Assembly (NCBI GenBank): GCA_903835385.1
Contig: CAILMQ010000011.1
Location: 1-38,681 of the forward strand
From: an uncultured Microcaldota archaeon
GTDB taxonomy: Archaea; Micrarchaeota; Micrarchaeia; Anstonellales; Bilamarchaeaceae
Length of the DNA stretch: 38,681 nt
Reading direction: 5' to 3'
The notes under the pieces were generated by a model, which searched no databases, had not been told where the DNA came from, and saw nothing but the letters and a program-made list of their open reading frames with translations. This document shows positions 5,664 to 23,943 of this stretch, in pieces; position 1 is the first letter of the stretch; every line of letters starts with the position of its first letter. Made by a program: the position numbers and the translations under genes.

Positions 5664-5852
5664 CTAGCCTTTCACGTCCTTGTAGCGCTTCCTGGAAGGC
5701 ATGATGCTCCAGCAGCCCTTGCATATGTAAATCTTGCCCGGCTTCTTGCGCTTCTGGCTCTTTATGCAGGGGTAGCATATCTTCTTCTTGCAGTAGGCGC
5801 AGACCTCGAGCTTCGCGCTCTGGGCGCCGCATCTTGCACATGTCTCTATCAT
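5664..5852 (-). CDS. Small zinc-finger protein
   Basis: MIETCARCGAQSAKLEVCAYCKKKICYPCIKSQ...CKGCW; SD GGAGGT upstream of the ATG at 5852. Confidence 0.7.
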   Translation of the reverse strand: MIETCARCGAQSAKLEVCAYCKKKICYPCIKSQKRKKPGKIYICKGCWSIMPSRKRYKDVKG

Positions 5853-5885
5853 CAATTCAACCTCCTTTGAACGGGATGTATCCTG

Positions 5886-5974
5886 ACCTGGTCTCGCCAC
5901 CTGAGCCGCGTCTTCTGTTGGCAGAAAACGCGGCTTGTCCAGACGACGGTGTTTAGCAAGTGGCGAAATCAGGT
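5886..5974. repeat. 89-bp structured repeat element, copy A
   Basis: Gapless alignment to 23619-23707 (65/89 identical by hand); imperfect 15-bp terminal inverted arms plus internal GCCGCGT/ACGCGGC stem. Confidence 0.85.
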
Positions 5975-6047
5975 CCTCAGAATACGCCTTTTTCCATCTA
6001 ACACATGCAACGAAATGTATTTAAGTCATACGCCGTTTAATCCCTCC

Positions 6048-6542
6048 ATGCGTGGACAGTCCATGATAGAATACGTGACCACCTACGGGTGGGCGATACT
6101 TGCCCTGGTCATAATAATCGGCCTGCTGGTGAGCAGCGGGGCGCTCTCGCCCACGTTCCTGGTGTCAGAGGAATGCAGCCTCGGCTCCAACCTGGCGTGC
6201 AAATTCGCGCTTTTCAACAACAACAGCGATACGAAAATAGCGCTCGGCCTGTACAACGGCTTCCCCTACAAGGTAAACATCACGAATGTCAGGGTGTACG
6301 ACCCTTCCATTGGCCTGGAGTTCAGCGGTTTCCCCAAAGGCACGCTGGTGGAGAGCGGCTCGAGCTACACCTCCAACGCGGGGCTCGGCACCGAGCTGCC
6401 GGCGAACACGGTGATGCAGCTCTATGCCAACATCACCTACGAGGCATGCACGCCTGAAGTCGCCGCGCCGGGCAGCGACTGCAGCGACGCGCAGCACACC
6501 ATATCAGGGAAGATAACCGGAAAAGTAATCGCCGGAAGCTAA
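6048..6542 (+). CDS. Class III signal peptide (type IV pilin-like) secreted protein
   Basis: MRGQSMIEYVTTYGWAILALVIIIGLLVSS N-terminus. Confidence 0.75.
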   Translation: MRGQSMIEYVTTYGWAILALVIIIGLLVSSGALSPTFLVSEECSLGSNLACKFALFNNNSDTKIALGLYNGFPYKVNITNVRVYDPSIGLEFSGFPKGTLVESGSSYTSNAGLGTELPANTVMQLYANITYEACTPEVAAPGSDCSDAQHTISGKITGKVIAGS

Positions 6543-8963: not shown

Positions 8964-10616
8964 ATGATTATGAAAACCCTGCCCGCAATCGCGCTCCTGC
9001 TCGCGCTTTTTTACATGGCCGGCGCGGCAAATGCGTCCAAGAACGTGAGCATACCCGGCGAGTCTTACGGAAACATAAACTGCCCCATCACCTACCTGTC
9101 GCACATTATTTCCGGCGGATACAACACCACGGTCAGGATAAGATTCGAAAATCCGTCGGGCTCCTCCACAAGCGCGTTCCGGCTCACGCTTTCAAGCGCG
9201 CTCGGATGGTTCGCGCCCAGGAACCTGACTTATGCGCTTAATCCGGACGGTTACGGCTCCGGCGGCTGGCCGTACTGGGACATGCCGCCCCTGGGGCCGG
9301 GCGAAAGCGCGGAGATATCGTTCGTGGTCAAGGGGAGCGTCGGGCTGGTCGACCAGGTGGGCCTGGATGCGGAACCGCTCGGCCGCTGGAGCGCCACGTG
9401 CAGCCGCGTCGTGCCCTATTCCGGCTCGGAACTGCGCCAGAACATCAGCCGCTACCTGGATTCGCTGAACTGGAGCCAGAACGTGACCGTGTATTATGAA
9501 AGCGGCAATCTCGCGCTCGCGCATCTGGAAAGGAACGGCTCCTTCGCGGTGTTCGGAATCAACAGCGGAAACGTCAGCGCGGTTTCGGATTACGGAACAA
9601 TATCCTCCCTGGTTTCAGGATATGGCGCCGCGGCGACGCCCGCGTTCTCCGGGGACGCCTCAAAGCCTTTCAGGACGCTGAATTATTCCAAAGCTCTGAA
9701 GGCCGGAGTGGAGAACAACTGCATGATGATTACCGGAATGGACAAGCACCCGTGCGTGAACCGGACCACCTGCCAGTACGCATGCGCCTCCGTGCCGGTA
9801 TGCTGGTATGTGGGGCAGATGGGCTGGCCGTTCATAGATTCGCTTCTGGCATACAAGACGAGCGTGAACAGCGCGAACGTCGCGCTGGAGAGCTCCATCA
9901 GTTCCTCCTATGCCTTCGGCCAGACGCCGTCCTATTCTACAGCGAACGCGGCGCTCTCGGACATGGAAGCACTCAACCGCTACGAGACCTCGGTCATCTA
10001 CCAGCCGCTTTTCAGCACGTATAATTTCTGCCCGCCGCCGGAATACGCCATGCCGCAGATGATTGATGCAAGGCGCACGCTGCTGGATTACCTGGACCAA
10101 AGCTGCGTCCAGACCCTGGAGGGAAGCATAACGAGCCAGAGCGTTGCAATCGCGCCCGCCCTGGCAAGGGCGGAAAAAGAAGCCGCGGCAGCGGAATCCG
10201 CAAGGATAAATGCGAGCCTTGCGTTGAACGCCAGCATTGCGCTGAATGCAAGCATCGCACTGAATGCAAGCATCGCGCTTAACAGGAGCGCCGCACTGAA
10301 CGCAAGCATTGCGTTGAATGCCAGCATTGCGGCGAACAGGAGCATCGCGTTGAATGATAGCATCGCGCTTAACAGGAGCCTTGCGCTGAATGCCAGCATT
10401 GCATTGAACAGGAGCCTTGCACTAAACGCGAGCATAGCGCTGAACAGGAGCATTGCCCTGAACGCCAGCATCGCGGCGAACGCGAGCAAAAGTTCGAGCG
10501 CCGTGCCTCAGACCATCCCGGAGGGCGTGCCGTGCAAGGTTCCGGCGGCCGCGCTGCTCGCGCTCGTAGCGATTACGGTGGCGGCTTCAATTGGGGATGC
10601 CCGTCCTTTACTTTAA
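8964..10616 (+). CDS. Secreted protein with hexapeptide sequon-repeat stalk and C-terminal hydrophobic segment
   Basis: Signal peptide MIMKTLPAIALLLALFYMAGAANA; 16 x [NxS(I/L)AL]; C-terminal PAAALLALVAITVAAS. Confidence 0.8.
   Translation: MIMKTLPAIALLLALFYMAGAANASKNVSIPGESYGNINCPITYLSHIISGGYNTTVRIRFENPSGSSTSAFRLTLSSALGWFAPRNLTYALNPDGYGSGGWPYWDMPPLGPGESAEISFVVKGSVGLVDQVGLDAEPLGRWSATCSRVVPYSGSELRQNISRYLDSLNWSQNVTVYYESGNLALAHLERNGSFAVFGINSGNVSAVSDYGTISSLVSGYGAAATPAFSGDASKPFRTLNYSKALKAGVENNCMMITGMDKHPCVNRTTCQYACASVPVCWYVGQMGWPFIDSLLAYKTSVNSANVALESSISSSYAFGQTPSYSTANAALSDMEALNRYETSVIYQPLFSTYNFCPPPEYAMPQMIDARRTLLDYLDQSCVQTLEGSITSQSVAIAPALARAEKEAAAAESARINASLALNASIALNASIALNASIALNRSAALNASIALNASIAANRSIALNDSIALNRSLALNASIALNRSLALNASIALNRSIALNASIAANASKSSSAVPQTIPEGVPCKVPAAALLALVAITVAASIGDARPLL
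10209..10487 (+). repeat. 18-bp coding tandem repeat (16 units, NxSIAL)
   Basis: N codon recurs every 18 bp from 10209 to 10479 without register slip. Confidence 0.9.
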
Positions 10617-12256: not shown

Positions 12257-13249
12257 TCATCTCGCTGCCTTGCCAGTCATCTCACAGAATTTGCAGAGCG
12301 CGGAGCTGCCCGGCTCCCCGCAGGAGGAACACGCGGTGAAGCGTGCCCGCGCAGGGTGTTCCCCGGGCGCCTTTTCCATCGCAAGGAAGCTGCCGAGCAC
12401 CTTATACTTCGTGCCTGGGTGGAGCTCCTCCATGTCGTTGAGCTGGCTCCTCACGAGCTGCCTGAACGCGGATTGCGCATAGGGGCATTCCTTATAGTTC
12501 ATGTCCATGCCGCGGACCATCGCATAGACCGCGGTTTCCTTCTCCGGAGTGCGCAGGAGCGGCCTTATGCGCCGGACGAATCCCGGGCCTTTGGCAGGCG
12601 GGTCCAGCAGCCTGCTTGTGCGCGATGGCTCGTTCCTGAATATGTTCATGAGCACGGTCTGCGCCATGTCGTCCAGGTTGTGGCCCATGGCGAGCTTGTC
12701 CGCCTCCAGTTCCCTGGCCGCCCGGTTGAGCAGGCCGCGCCTCAGGACCCCGCACCAGGAGCAGGGCAGGAAGTTGCGTGTTCCGTGTCCTGTGTTCCGT
12801 GTCGTGTGCCCTGTGTTCCGTGTTGGGTGTTCGGTGTCCTGTTCCCGGAGTATGGCGTCAAGGGTTTTGCCGATTTCTTTTTTGAATGATATGACGCGGT
12901 GCTCGATTCCGAGTTTTTTGGCCTGTTTTTTCGCGATTTGAAGGGTCGCGTTGCGATAACCTGCGATTCCTTCGTCTATTGTTATCGCCACGAGCTCCAT
13001 GGGCAGGTCTTTGGACAATTCATGCAGGCAATTGAGCAAAACCGTGCTGTCCTTGCCGCCCGAGAGCCCGACCGCCACCCGCTCGCCCTTGCTTATCATG
13101 CGGAACTCGCGCACGGTGGAGCGGAATCGCTTGTCGAACATGCGCACGAAATGCGCGGCGCAGAGGCTCCGCTCGCAGTAGTGCAGGCGGATGACGGCAT
13201 CGTCGTCGCATTTAAAACATTTGGAGAGTTTGCCCGCTGGGTTCGCCAT
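12257..13249 (-). CDS. ttuA: tRNA 2-thiolation protein, TtuA/NcsA family
   Basis: PP-loop GLSGGKDSTVLL; PCSWCGVLRR; YKECPYA; N- and C-terminal zinc fingers. Confidence 0.85.
   Translation of the reverse strand: MANPAGKLSKCFKCDDDAVIRLHYCERSLCAAHFVRMFDKRFRSTVREFRMISKGERVAVGLSGGKDSTVLLNCLHELSKDLPMELVAITIDEGIAGYRNATLQIAKKQAKKLGIEHRVISFKKEIGKTLDAILREQDTEHPTRNTGHTTRNTGHGTRNFLPCSWCGVLRRGLLNRAARELEADKLAMGHNLDDMAQTVLMNIFRNEPSRTSRLLDPPAKGPGFVRRIRPLLRTPEKETAVYAMVRGMDMNYKECPYAQSAFRQLVRSQLNDMEELHPGTKYKVLGSFLAMEKAPGEHPARARFTACSSCGEPGSSALCKFCEMTGKAAR
12776..12842. repeat. Degenerate GTGTTCCGTGTC minisatellite inside ttuA
   Basis: gtgttccgtgtcctgtgttccgtgtcgtgtgccctgtgttccgtgttgggtgttcggtgtcctg. Confidence 0.85.
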
Positions 13250-14804: not shown

Positions 14805-16565
14805 ATGATTGAGCGAAAACCGAATCCTACAGACGCGAAGACGTATTACCAGTTGGGCAACGATTACTACGAGAAGTCAGACTACGAGAAGGCCATAGAG
14901 AACTATAACATGGCCATCCTACTCAACCCGGTGTTCTCCGAGGCCTACTTCAACCGCGCCCTGTCTTATTATCAGCTCAAGAACTTCGACAAGTCCGTCG
15001 CGGACTACACCAAGGCCGCGGAGCTGGACCCCCAGAACCCGATAATCTACAATAACAGGGGCGACGCGTTCTACAGGAAGCAGGATTTCCAGACCGCGGT
15101 GAAGGATTACGACAAGGCCATAACCCTCAACCCCAACTACCTCAAGGCGTTCTACAACAGGGGGCTCTCCTACGCCTCCATAGAGGAGTACGAGAAGGCG
15201 GTGGAGGATTTCAGCAAGGTCATCCAGATAAAGGCGGACTTCGCCGAGGCCTACCACCTCAGGGGCCTGGCGCACGAGTACGCGGGCAGCATCAGCGACG
15301 CAATAGCGGACTACGAGAAGGCGCTGCAGCTCAACCCCGAGCTCGCGGAGGCCAAGACGCACCTGGAGAGCGCGAAGGCGAAGAAGGAGCAGGAAGGCAA
15401 GGGCGAGGGTGGCGGCGGCGGGGGGGCTGCCGGCGCGGACATAAAGATGCTCCAGAAGCCGACAATGACATTCAACGACGTCGCGGGCATGAAGAAGATG
15501 AAGGAGGAAATCCGCGAGGCAATCGTATACCCGATGATAAATCCGGACCTGGCCCGCAAGTACGGCAAGCTGGGAGGCGGCGGCATACTGATGTACGGCC
15601 CGCCCGGATGCGGGAAGACCTTCATAGTCAAGGCTGCCGCCGGCGAGTGCCAGGCGGGGTTCATAAACGCGAAGCTGTCCGATTTGCTGGACATGTACGT
15701 GGGCAACACCGAGAAGAACATACACAAGGTGTTCGAGCTGGCGCGCAAGCACGTGCCGTGCATACTGTTTTTCGACGAAGTGGACGCCCTCGGTGGCAGG
15801 AGGGACCAGCAGGAAGGCCAGCAGTACATGAAGATGGCCGTGAACCAGCTTCTCTACGAGATGGACGGCGTGGAGGCGAACAACCAGAACGTGCTGGTCA
15901 TAGCCGCGACCAACGCGCCCTGGGATGTGGACCCGGCGCTGAGGAGGTCCGGCCGTTTCAGCAAGCTGCTGTACATACCGGAGCCGGATTACGACTCGCG
16001 CGTCGCCATACTCAAGCTCCATGCCAAGAAAAGGCCGGTCGGGTCGCTGGTGCCGTTCAGGCTGCTAGGGACTGCGACCATGGGCTATGCCTCGGCCGAC
16101 CTCAAGGCGATTGTGGACGAGGCGGCGACCTACCCGTGGAGGGAGGCGTTCTTCTCCATAGAGAAGAAGGCGGAGAAGTACATCGAGCAGGGCATGGCCA
16201 AGGAGGAGGCCCATGAGAAGGCGAAGAAGGAGGTCTACCAGAGGTCGCTCAGCGTGGGCGATTTCACCAAGGCCATGATGAAGAAGAAATCCTCGCTGCC
16301 GCCCTGGTACGGCCAGGCGAAGAAGCAGATAGGCAAGCAGGAGGAAATCACCATAATAGACGGCAAGGAGCACAAGAAAGTGAGCGACAGCAAGATGGGC
16401 CCTGCGGAAAAGGAGTCCTTCAAGGAGCTGCTCAACGTCATAAACACCGGGAACCAGGCGTGGCACAAGTTCCTCGTGTACGGGGTGGTGCGCTACGCCT
16501 CGCTCGCGCTCCTGTTCCTCTACACGCTGGTCATCGACAGGAAGATAGTGCTGTCCTCGAAGTGA
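14805..16565 (+). CDS. TPR-AAA+ ATPase with C-terminal TM anchor
   Basis: About 5 TPRs, Gly-rich linker, AAA+ (GPPGCGKT; ILFFDEVDALGG; ALRRSGRF), C-terminal VRYASLALLFLYTLVI. Confidence 0.9.
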   Translation: MIERKPNPTDAKTYYQLGNDYYEKSDYEKAIENYNMAILLNPVFSEAYFNRALSYYQLKNFDKSVADYTKAAELDPQNPIIYNNRGDAFYRKQDFQTAVKDYDKAITLNPNYLKAFYNRGLSYASIEEYEKAVEDFSKVIQIKADFAEAYHLRGLAHEYAGSISDAIADYEKALQLNPELAEAKTHLESAKAKKEQEGKGEGGGGGGAAGADIKMLQKPTMTFNDVAGMKKMKEEIREAIVYPMINPDLARKYGKLGGGGILMYGPPGCGKTFIVKAAAGECQAGFINAKLSDLLDMYVGNTEKNIHKVFELARKHVPCILFFDEVDALGGRRDQQEGQQYMKMAVNQLLYEMDGVEANNQNVLVIAATNAPWDVDPALRRSGRFSKLLYIPEPDYDSRVAILKLHAKKRPVGSLVPFRLLGTATMGYASADLKAIVDEAATYPWREAFFSIEKKAEKYIEQGMAKEEAHEKAKKEVYQRSLSVGDFTKAMMKKKSSLPPWYGQAKKQIGKQEEITIIDGKEHKKVSDSKMGPAEKESFKELLNVINTGNQAWHKFLVYGVVRYASLALLFLYTLVIDRKIVLSSK

Positions 16566-18309: not shown

Positions 18310-18753
18310 TCAGGACCTGTCTATGTTTATCGTCGCCTCTCCGCTGGTACTGTTGTATACCGAGGTTATGGTGAACCTCGCCCAGCCCGACTGGCTCTGG
18401 AGCTGCTGGGGGTTGGCGATGGGATACTTGACAATTTCCACCACTTCACTCGGCCCGGACGGAGTGTCCATGGCTAGCACGACCTCGCCGCCGTGCTGGA
18501 CGGTCCGGGTGCTGAAGTTGGATACTCCGGGCGGGATGTAAACCTCGGCGACCAGGGACGTGCTGCTGCCCAGGGCGCCGACGGAGTTCGCCAGGTAGGC
18601 GAGCCTGAGCGCGGCCAGTTCCGCCTGGTATTCGCCTATCTGCGCGTTGGCCTCGTTGGTCTTGAAATAGACGAACATGAGCAAGGGTATGAAAACGACC
18701 AGCACCAGGCCGATGATGATGAGGAATTCTGTCGCCACCTGTCCTTTTTTCAT
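18310..18753 (-). CDS. Class III signal peptide pilin-like protein
   Basis: MKKGQVATEFLIIIGLVLVVFIPLL. Confidence 0.75.
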   Translation of the reverse strand: MKKGQVATEFLIIIGLVLVVFIPLLMFVYFKTNEANAQIGEYQAELAALRLAYLANSVGALGSSTSLVAEVYIPPGVSNFSTRTVQHGGEVVLAMDTPSGPSEVVEIVKYPIANPQQLQSQSGWARFTITSVYNSTSGEATINIDRS

Positions 18754-19865
18754 AGAACTTCCTCTTCCCGGCCGCTGTTGACCCGCCTGGCCTTCGTGTG
18801 CTTCTTCTCTTTCTTTTTCAAGAGCACGGCGTCCAGCTCATCGGCCAGCTGGTCCACGGCTTCCTTGAGCGCCTTGCGTTCTGTTGACAGCGAAATATGG
18901 CCGTCATCAGTGTCGAAGTAGAGGAAGACCTCGAACGTGGATTTGTCCTCCTTCACGTGCACAGAAACGTTCCTGATGTTGAATGATTTGGAGAACTTCT
19001 CGAGCACCCCGCCGATCTTGGCTTTTATCTCCGGGAACTGCCATATGCTGTCCTCCGTGAGGCCGGAGACCGACATGGATATCTCCTCTTTGGCGATCTC
19101 CTGTATCCTCCTGAATATGTCTATGGCCGAGAGCACGCCCACAAGCCCCTTGCCAGAGACCGAGACCGCGAGCACCGAGGACACGCCCTTGTCTATCATC
19201 CGCTTGGCCGCCTCTTCTATGGTGGACTGCTCGGGGATGGTCGTCACATCCGCCCTCAGGTAGCCGGATATCGGCATTTCAAGCCCGCTATCCACTTCCT
19301 TGACAACGTAGGGCTTTTTCTCGATCAGCCTCGGCTTCGTGAGATAGGACGCGAGGTCCAGGGTGGATATCACTCCCACGGGAGTGCCCTTCCTGGTGAC
19401 CACGAGGCGGTGGCAGCCATACTCTTTCATCATGCCCCTGGCCCTGGCCACGGGCGCGCTTTCATCAATGGTGTATACCGGCGAACTCATGAGCTCGGAT
19501 ATCCGGTTCTTCGGCACCAGCCCCTCCTCCACCATGGCCTTGAGCAAATCGGTGCGCGTGGTTATCCCGAGCGGCTTTCCGTCCGCGTCCACGACCGGGA
19601 GCGCCTTGAAATGGCCGAGCAGGAACGCGTTTATCTGGTCCAATATGGCGGTGTCCGGCTTCAGGACGGGCGGCTTGACCACGCAGTTCTCGCATTTCGT
19701 CTTTGCCGAGTCCGCGATGCCGTGCCTGAGGTTCCGGTCGTCTATTATCCCGTAGTATCTCTCGTTCTTGGTGACCAGGACCGCGGTTCCGGTCTCCATG
19801 AGCTCGTTTATGGCCCTGGACAGGTGTTCGTCTCCATCAAGCGTAAGCGACTTCGTTATCTCCAT
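18750..19865 (-). CDS. Four-CBS-domain protein with C-terminal HPF/RaiA-like domain
   Basis: Four CBS repeats; C-terminal NVSVHVKEDKSTFEVFLYFDTDDGHISLSTERKALKEAVDQLADELDAVLLKKKEKK resembles HPF. Confidence 0.8.
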   Translation of the reverse strand: MEITKSLTLDGDEHLSRAINELMETGTAVLVTKNERYYGIIDDRNLRHGIADSAKTKCENCVVKPPVLKPDTAILDQINAFLLGHFKALPVVDADGKPLGITTRTDLLKAMVEEGLVPKNRISELMSSPVYTIDESAPVARARGMMKEYGCHRLVVTRKGTPVGVISTLDLASYLTKPRLIEKKPYVVKEVDSGLEMPISGYLRADVTTIPEQSTIEEAAKRMIDKGVSSVLAVSVSGKGLVGVLSAIDIFRRIQEIAKEEISMSVSGLTEDSIWQFPEIKAKIGGVLEKFSKSFNIRNVSVHVKEDKSTFEVFLYFDTDDGHISLSTERKALKEAVDQLADELDAVLLKKKEKKHTKARRVNSGREEEVL

Positions 19866-23348: not shown

Positions 23349-23591
23349 CTAGGCATCATTAGTATTCTTCTCGATAGATTCAAAAACCTGGAGGTTCCTC
23401 AGCAGGCTGTTGGCAGCCGCCCGGAACGCAACCACGTCGTCCGCTTCTATTTTTATGGTGAGCGATGCGCCGGACAACCGCACCGAGCATGCCGAGCGCC
23501 CGAAACCCTTCTCGCCTGCGAGCGCGGTTGCGGCTGATTTCGCCGCTGCGACGGAATCGAACTCCACCTCAATCCTTCCCTTTGCCTTCAT
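23349..23591 (-). CDS. pcc1: KEOPS complex subunit Pcc1
   Basis: MKAKGRIEVEFDSVAAAKSAATAL...LTIKIEADDVVAFRAAANSLLRNLQV; operon context. Confidence 0.8.
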   Translation of the reverse strand: MKAKGRIEVEFDSVAAAKSAATALAGEKGFGRSACSVRLSGASLTIKIEADDVVAFRAAANSLLRNLQVFESIEKNTNDA

Positions 23592-23943
23592 GATCAACGA
23601 CTTCCTTCCTTCCCGACCACCTGGTCTCGTCACCGGAGCCGCGTCTTCTGCCTTTCTTCGACGCGGCTTGTGCCACCGGCTCTTTGGCGCAAGTGGCGAA
23701 ACCAGGTGCCCAGCGCCAGCCGCCCCTTTCCAGGACTTCTACTGATGAGATGAACGCGGGCTTTCCGCCCCTTTCCTCCACGATGCCGACACTCGCGTCG
23801 CCGGCCCTTCTCGCGAATTCGGCGAGAGCGGCGATTGTTTTCTTGCCCCGGGCCACGAAGCGCGCGCCGGATGATGCGGCGAGAGAGCGCGCAGCCTTCC
23901 GCGTCTCCTCGGACGCGTACCTGCTGGTTGTCAGGAGCGCCAT
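23569..23943 (-). CDS. Brix domain (Imp4-like) protein, C-terminus encoded by repeat element B
   Basis: MALLTTSRYASEETRKAARSLAASSGARFVARGKKTIAAL; canonical position between rpoP and pcc1. Confidence 0.7.
   Translation of the reverse strand: MALLTTSRYASEETRKAARSLAASSGARFVARGKKTIAALAEFARRAGDASVGIVEERGGKPAFISSVEVLERGGWRWAPGFATCAKEPVAQAASKKGRRRGSGDETRWSGRKEVVDHEGKGKD
23619..23707. repeat. 89-bp structured repeat element, copy B
   Basis: Gapless alignment with 5886-5974. Confidence 0.85.

Follow-up and report, generated by a model that had tools for sequence, protein, structure and literature searches.

Introduction

The systems closest to the element described here (PMC2229807, PMC10969869, PMC3733652) are the Rickettsia palindromic elements (RPE; Ogata et al. 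2000, 2002), palindromes of 105-146 bp with long stem-loops, which are found both between genes and in frame within conserved genes, where they lengthen the protein by tens of residues (PMC2229807, PMC10969869). Protein-coding palindromes were earlier called unique to Rickettsia, and were then seen in Wolbachia and one methanogen. As cited in PMC2229807 and PMC2996958, palindromes with coding potential lie inside Wolbachia genes (Ogata et al. 2005), and palindromic repeats are fused in frame to protein genes in the archaeon Methanocaldococcus jannaschii.

The window, the whole stretch of 38,681 nt analysed (contig CAILMQ010000011.1, from an uncultured Microcaldota archaeon), carries two segments, termed w1 and w2, which are very probably divergent copies of one short palindromic mobile element, MITE-like and non-autonomous, present at low copy number in a few Micrarchaeota. 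Like the RPE, this is a short palindrome with a long stem-loop, located at intergenic and in-frame genic sites and supplying a peptide of tens of residues, a likeness of description; unlike them, it has an archaeal host, spans 89-116 bp, and occurs at one or two copies per genome as opposed to the 44 insertions of R. conorii. Compared likewise by description, it shares coding-capable palindromes within genes with the Wolbachia repeats, which are bacterial, and archaeal in-frame fusion with those of M. jannaschii, which belongs to another phylum. Its affinities with the MITEs (Sulfolobus, Halobacterium, Correia/NEMIS, RUP) are the terminal inverted repeats, target duplication, absence of a transposase gene and length below 200 bp (PMC2229807, PMC10969869). 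It differs from them in its few copies, in the want of an identified parent insertion sequence, in being palindromic over almost its whole length, with a second stem inside, and in a 4-bp duplication without TA ends. Most of the MITE features tested were found; the element probably works as the RPE do, and the preferred reading is a new family of a known type. The literature searched yielded no paper joining Micrarchaeota to miniature inverted-repeat elements.

That a family with a defined 4-bp duplication and clean empty sites occurs in the Micrarchaeota (DPANN) supports the recurrence of such elements in small genomes. The family also supplies a target duplication of the sort that a review (PMC2229807) lists for the RPE as unknown ('?'), together with a clean gain of 31 residues in a small conserved protein.

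The pair of copies in the window

The original prediction had singled out w1 and w2 as a pair of 89-nt segments with 65 of 89 positions identical in an ungapped alignment, and recheck showed these values to be exact, as was the reported divergence of the loops: the 10-nt loop is identical at 0 of 10 positions and the 19-nt segment at 8 of 19 (11 differing). The parts of the two copies are set out below, with scores from the covariance model of the element (R1).

5886-5974, unstranded: w1, palindromic element copy, 89 bp (R1 92 bits, E 4e-21)
5882-5885, unstranded: w1 left 4-bp target duplication CCTG (3/4 match to right CCTC)
5975-5978, unstranded: w1 right 4-bp target duplication CCTC (3/4 match to left CCTG)
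5886-5900, unstranded: w1 left terminal inverted repeat, 15 nt (13 Watson-Crick pairs and one G.T of 15 with 5960-5974)
5960-5974, unstranded: w1 right terminal inverted repeat, 15 nt (pairs with 5886-5900)
5903-5912, unstranded: w1 inner stem, 5' side, 10 nt (pairs with 5927-5936)
5927-5936, unstranded: w1 inner stem, 3' side, 10 nt (pairs with 5903-5912)
23619-23707, unstranded: w2, palindromic element copy, 89 bp (R1 99.7 bits, E 4e-23)
23615-23618, unstranded: w2 left 4-bp target duplication GACC (3/4 match to right GCCC)
23708-23711, unstranded: w2 right 4-bp target duplication GCCC (3/4 match to left GACC)

The 14 of 15 paired positions previously given for the outer arms hold in each copy if a wobble is counted, as 13 Watson-Crick pairs plus one G.T; the mismatch, which had been placed differently in the two copies, is a C.A at position 8 of both, and the wobble alone moves. 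No other plus-strand 89-mer of the window exceeded 40/89 identities (mean 22.7, sd 4.2), which leaves the w1/w2 pair about 10 sd out. In the folding check that had been suggested, both copies clearly outdid shuffled sequences, whichever strand was folded (z -4.9 to -8.3).

Copies in other genomes

Searches by blastn with w1 returned w1 and w2 as the sole matches in the window's own genome (G000), and among relatives gave two full-length copies in G038, one in G015 and a partial match in G032. Once the loci were read, five copies proved to be exactly 89 nt long, while the sixth, whose inner loop is longer, has 116 nt. A covariance-model search had also been proposed in the original prediction: run with R1 on genomes of the same family (43), order (84) and class (303) in the Micrarchaeota, it recovered the same six copies (80-103 bits), in 4 of the 303 class genomes and all at different loci. 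Two of these are in G000, two in G038, and one each in G015 and G032, the assemblies being 81-90% complete.

When 85,488 species genomes were scanned for the exact pattern of the left arm, the matches were the Micrarchaeota MAGs Sv217, Sv348 and Modern_marine.mb.318 plus two bacterial contigs, one judged to be chance and the other (L039) uncertain, and no Rickettsia. A match in an alphaproteobacterium (L042) was likewise put down to chance, and the viral contigs L044 and L111-L114 each offered a single chance arm without a convincing palindrome; the plasmids and phages searched gave no real match. When lone arms were compared by blastn with 148 relatives, only short matches, taken as chance, were recorded outside the four element-bearing genomes, and none convincingly indicated an insertion sequence sharing the element's ends; in these searches neither a transposase nor a full-length partner with such ends was found.

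The uncertain bacterial match is a deltaproteobacterial contig (L039:186-263), on which a 78-nt palindrome with arms resembling the element (22 bits) lies immediately upstream of hppD in an hppD-hmgA operon. It is without a 4-bp duplication and without a second copy in its own genome, and none was found in 143 relatives.

Target duplications and empty sites

With the boundaries of all six copies fixed from the inverted repeats alone, the 4-nt flanks agree at 18 of 24 positions, a level reached in 0 of 200,000 random flank draws; other lengths gave at most 14/54 or 20/60 matches, and shifted boundaries at most 13/24. Two flank pairs are exact (TTGA/TTGA and TCAA/TCAA) and three match at 3/4 (CCTG/CCTC, GACC/GCCC and AAAA/TAAA); the G015 copy has no recognisable duplication (TGTA/ACTG, 1/4). 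Both G038 sites are empty in the relative G035, where each is shorter by 93 bp, that is 89 + 4: the site in a DUF167 gene measures 249 versus 156 nt, with 124/156 flanking positions identical, and the second site 164 versus 71 nt. At the empty DUF167 site of G035 the target TTGA is present once, and the flanks align to positions overlapping by exactly 4 nt. For w1 and w2, the empty sites were deduced from intergenic lengths and protein ends rather than from a close DNA relative. The element was present at 0 of 49 orthologous loci examined in relatives.

As the duplication is fixed at 4 bp, the empty sites are 93 bp shorter, and w2 is nearer to a copy from another genus (85% identical) than to w1 (73%), the copies have moved and were not inherited locus by locus. 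Of the candidates put forward in the original prediction, a MITE-like element is thus the one that these fixed duplications, two empty sites and unrelated loci favour, and a REP-like element fits neither the size nor the copy number. A DDE-type transposase acting in trans would be the most natural agent, its cut staggered by 4 nt so as to leave the 4-bp target duplication.

Genes adjoining w1 and w2

The genes beside the two copies are the following.

5664-5852, minus strand: gene for a zinc-finger-like protein, 62 aa, adjoining w1 (tblastn 46-71% identity in 20 relatives)
6063-6542, plus strand: pilin-like gene on the other flank of w1 (syntenic in 12 relatives; no Pfam match)
23349-23591, minus strand: pcc1, KEOPS subunit, downstream of w2 (PF09341 E 4e-13; NF011470 E 1.5e-14)
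23569-23943, minus strand: Brix/Imp4-like rRNA maturation ORF (residues 3-66 match NF002093 at E 1e-7, short of the curated cut-off)

The copies w1, w2 and that of G032 lie 27-33 nt ahead of a minus-strand start codon, and the distances first reported were right (w1 33 nt from the zinc-finger ATG at 5852, w2 27 nt from the pcc1 ATG). Together with the strong predicted fold, this placement is what would commend a cis-regulatory leader RNA, either riboswitch or attenuator, acting before minus-strand genes. The placement is nevertheless not family-wide, w2 lying also inside the upstream Brix-like ORF and other copies being located inside the DUF167 gene and between convergent genes; moreover, R1 detected no element at the 20 zinc-finger loci and 20 Brix loci searched in relatives, the zinc-finger gene being conserved in genomes that lack it, and neither an Rfam match nor covariation supports such an RNA. 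A leader is consequently very improbable. The proximity to start codons can be explained by the shortness of the native intergenic gaps: w1 occupies the divergent gap between the zinc-finger (minus) and pilin-like (plus) genes, which measures 210 nt, or 117 nt after subtraction of 93, and in the 12 syntenic relatives without the element this gap is 92-246 nt.

Structure and conservation of the six copies

The terminal repeat reads ACCTGAyTTCGcCAC. Across the six copies, 96% of cells in the outer 15-nt arms and 95% of those in the inner stem are paired. Identity is 89-91% in the arms, 38% in the hairpin loop and 52% in the side segment, and no covariation beyond that of shuffles was recorded with these six sequences. 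A match to a known Rfam family, which the original prediction had counted as evidence against its reading, was sought at gathering and at lax thresholds: there were 0 matches in the window, apart from chance-level microRNA matches. The element, at 89-116 nt, has no transposase gene, its longest internal frame being of about 38 codons.

Stems kept, loops wholly different and a fixed length are features that a small RNA gene, a guide or antisense RNA with its specificity in the variable loops, might be expected to display, and this had been one of the earlier candidates. However, the arms are conserved at the level of sequence and not by covariation, the copies have 4-bp duplications and empty sites, and their positions are scattered, coding sequence among them, with no Rfam family to which they belong; a small RNA is accordingly given very little credence. 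Movement by transposition is the favoured account: a transposase provided in trans would recognise the arms at the DNA level, since they are conserved while the loops drift, excess covariation is absent, the duplication is fixed and the element has no gene of its own. Such recognition would hold the arms fixed and leave the loops free to diverge.

Insertions within genes

One of the G038 copies splits a DUF167/YggU gene (PF02594) between native codons 19 and 20, adding in frame 31 residues that are absent from 19 relatives and leaving the rest of the protein intact; comparison of this gene with that of G035 gave a dN/dS of about 0.2. An AlphaFold2 model of the protein from single-sequence input (pLDDT 47) was set aside. 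In the window, the last ~45 codons of the Brix/Imp4-like ORF pass in frame through w2, just beyond a conserved GGWRW, and the C-terminus is thereby extended in the same element strand and frame as in DUF167; the equivalent proteins of relatives stop 0-20 residues beyond GGWRW. In-frame insertion with the flanking protein preserved is therefore recorded internally in DUF167 and at a gene 3' end with w2, a small number of cases.

So exact an insertion within a conserved gene might suggest an archaeal intron spliced from RNA, which would account for its neutrality with respect to frame. The stem is, however, continuous to the ends of the element with the duplicated flanks unpaired, no bulge-helix-bulge being present at the junctions; the reading frame is open through the element, intergenic copies exist, and a 4-bp duplication would be unexpected of such introns. 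Splicing is hence scarcely credible here, and the insertion is better attributed to the mobile element itself.

Several reading frames of the element are free of stops, and the inserted length (89 + 4 or 116 + 4, the longer copy having 27 extra nt) is a multiple of three in 6/6 copies, a regularity resting on two distinct lengths. Given these lengths and open frames, the element would be tolerated within genes, and may in this way persist in a gene-dense genome, its genic insertions being read out as extra predicted peptide rather than as gene loss. The two genic copies share strand and frame, open in both, and encode in that frame the peptide P-[DG]-[LF]-A-T...PVA-A-S...RRRGSG-E-R, which is partly a consequence of the conserved arms.

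A variant compatible with mobility is that this is an ordinary MITE, with coding compatibility unselected and the DUF167 case a chance survivor. There is one clean internal gene insertion only, the intergenic copies w1 and G015 have a TAA in the frame that the genic copies use, and in-frame fusions of MITEs have been described as not unusual (PMC10969869); the multiple-of-three length of all copies, that of 116 nt included, and the single strand and frame of both genic copies tell against it. With six copies known, lucky survival of this kind is tentatively regarded as a real possibility beside selection for gene tolerance. The further proposal of a gene-tolerant element shaped by selection, its peptide tolerated in protein loops, and moving between archaeal genera, or possibly between domains if the L039 palindrome were related, is unlikely.

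Other features of the window

Within the plus-strand ORF 8964-10616, about 15 tandem 18-nt units (10209-10524) encode hexapeptides N-[AR]-S-I-A-L, and so a dense series of N-x-S glycosylation sequons; the product, which NCBIfam does not match, is predicted to be secreted, and the sequons lie close to its C-terminus. A short, imperfect, G/T-rich tandem repeat of GTGTTCCGTGTCCT units is located at 12778-12848 in predicted ORFs. At 14805-16565 (plus strand), N-terminal TPR repeats are joined to an AAA ATPase domain of the CDC48/FtsH/PAN-like type, and at 18750-19865 (minus strand) CBS-domain matches occur in one protein with a match, at its C-terminal end, to the HPF/YfiA family of ribosome hibernation factors, an unusual pairing.
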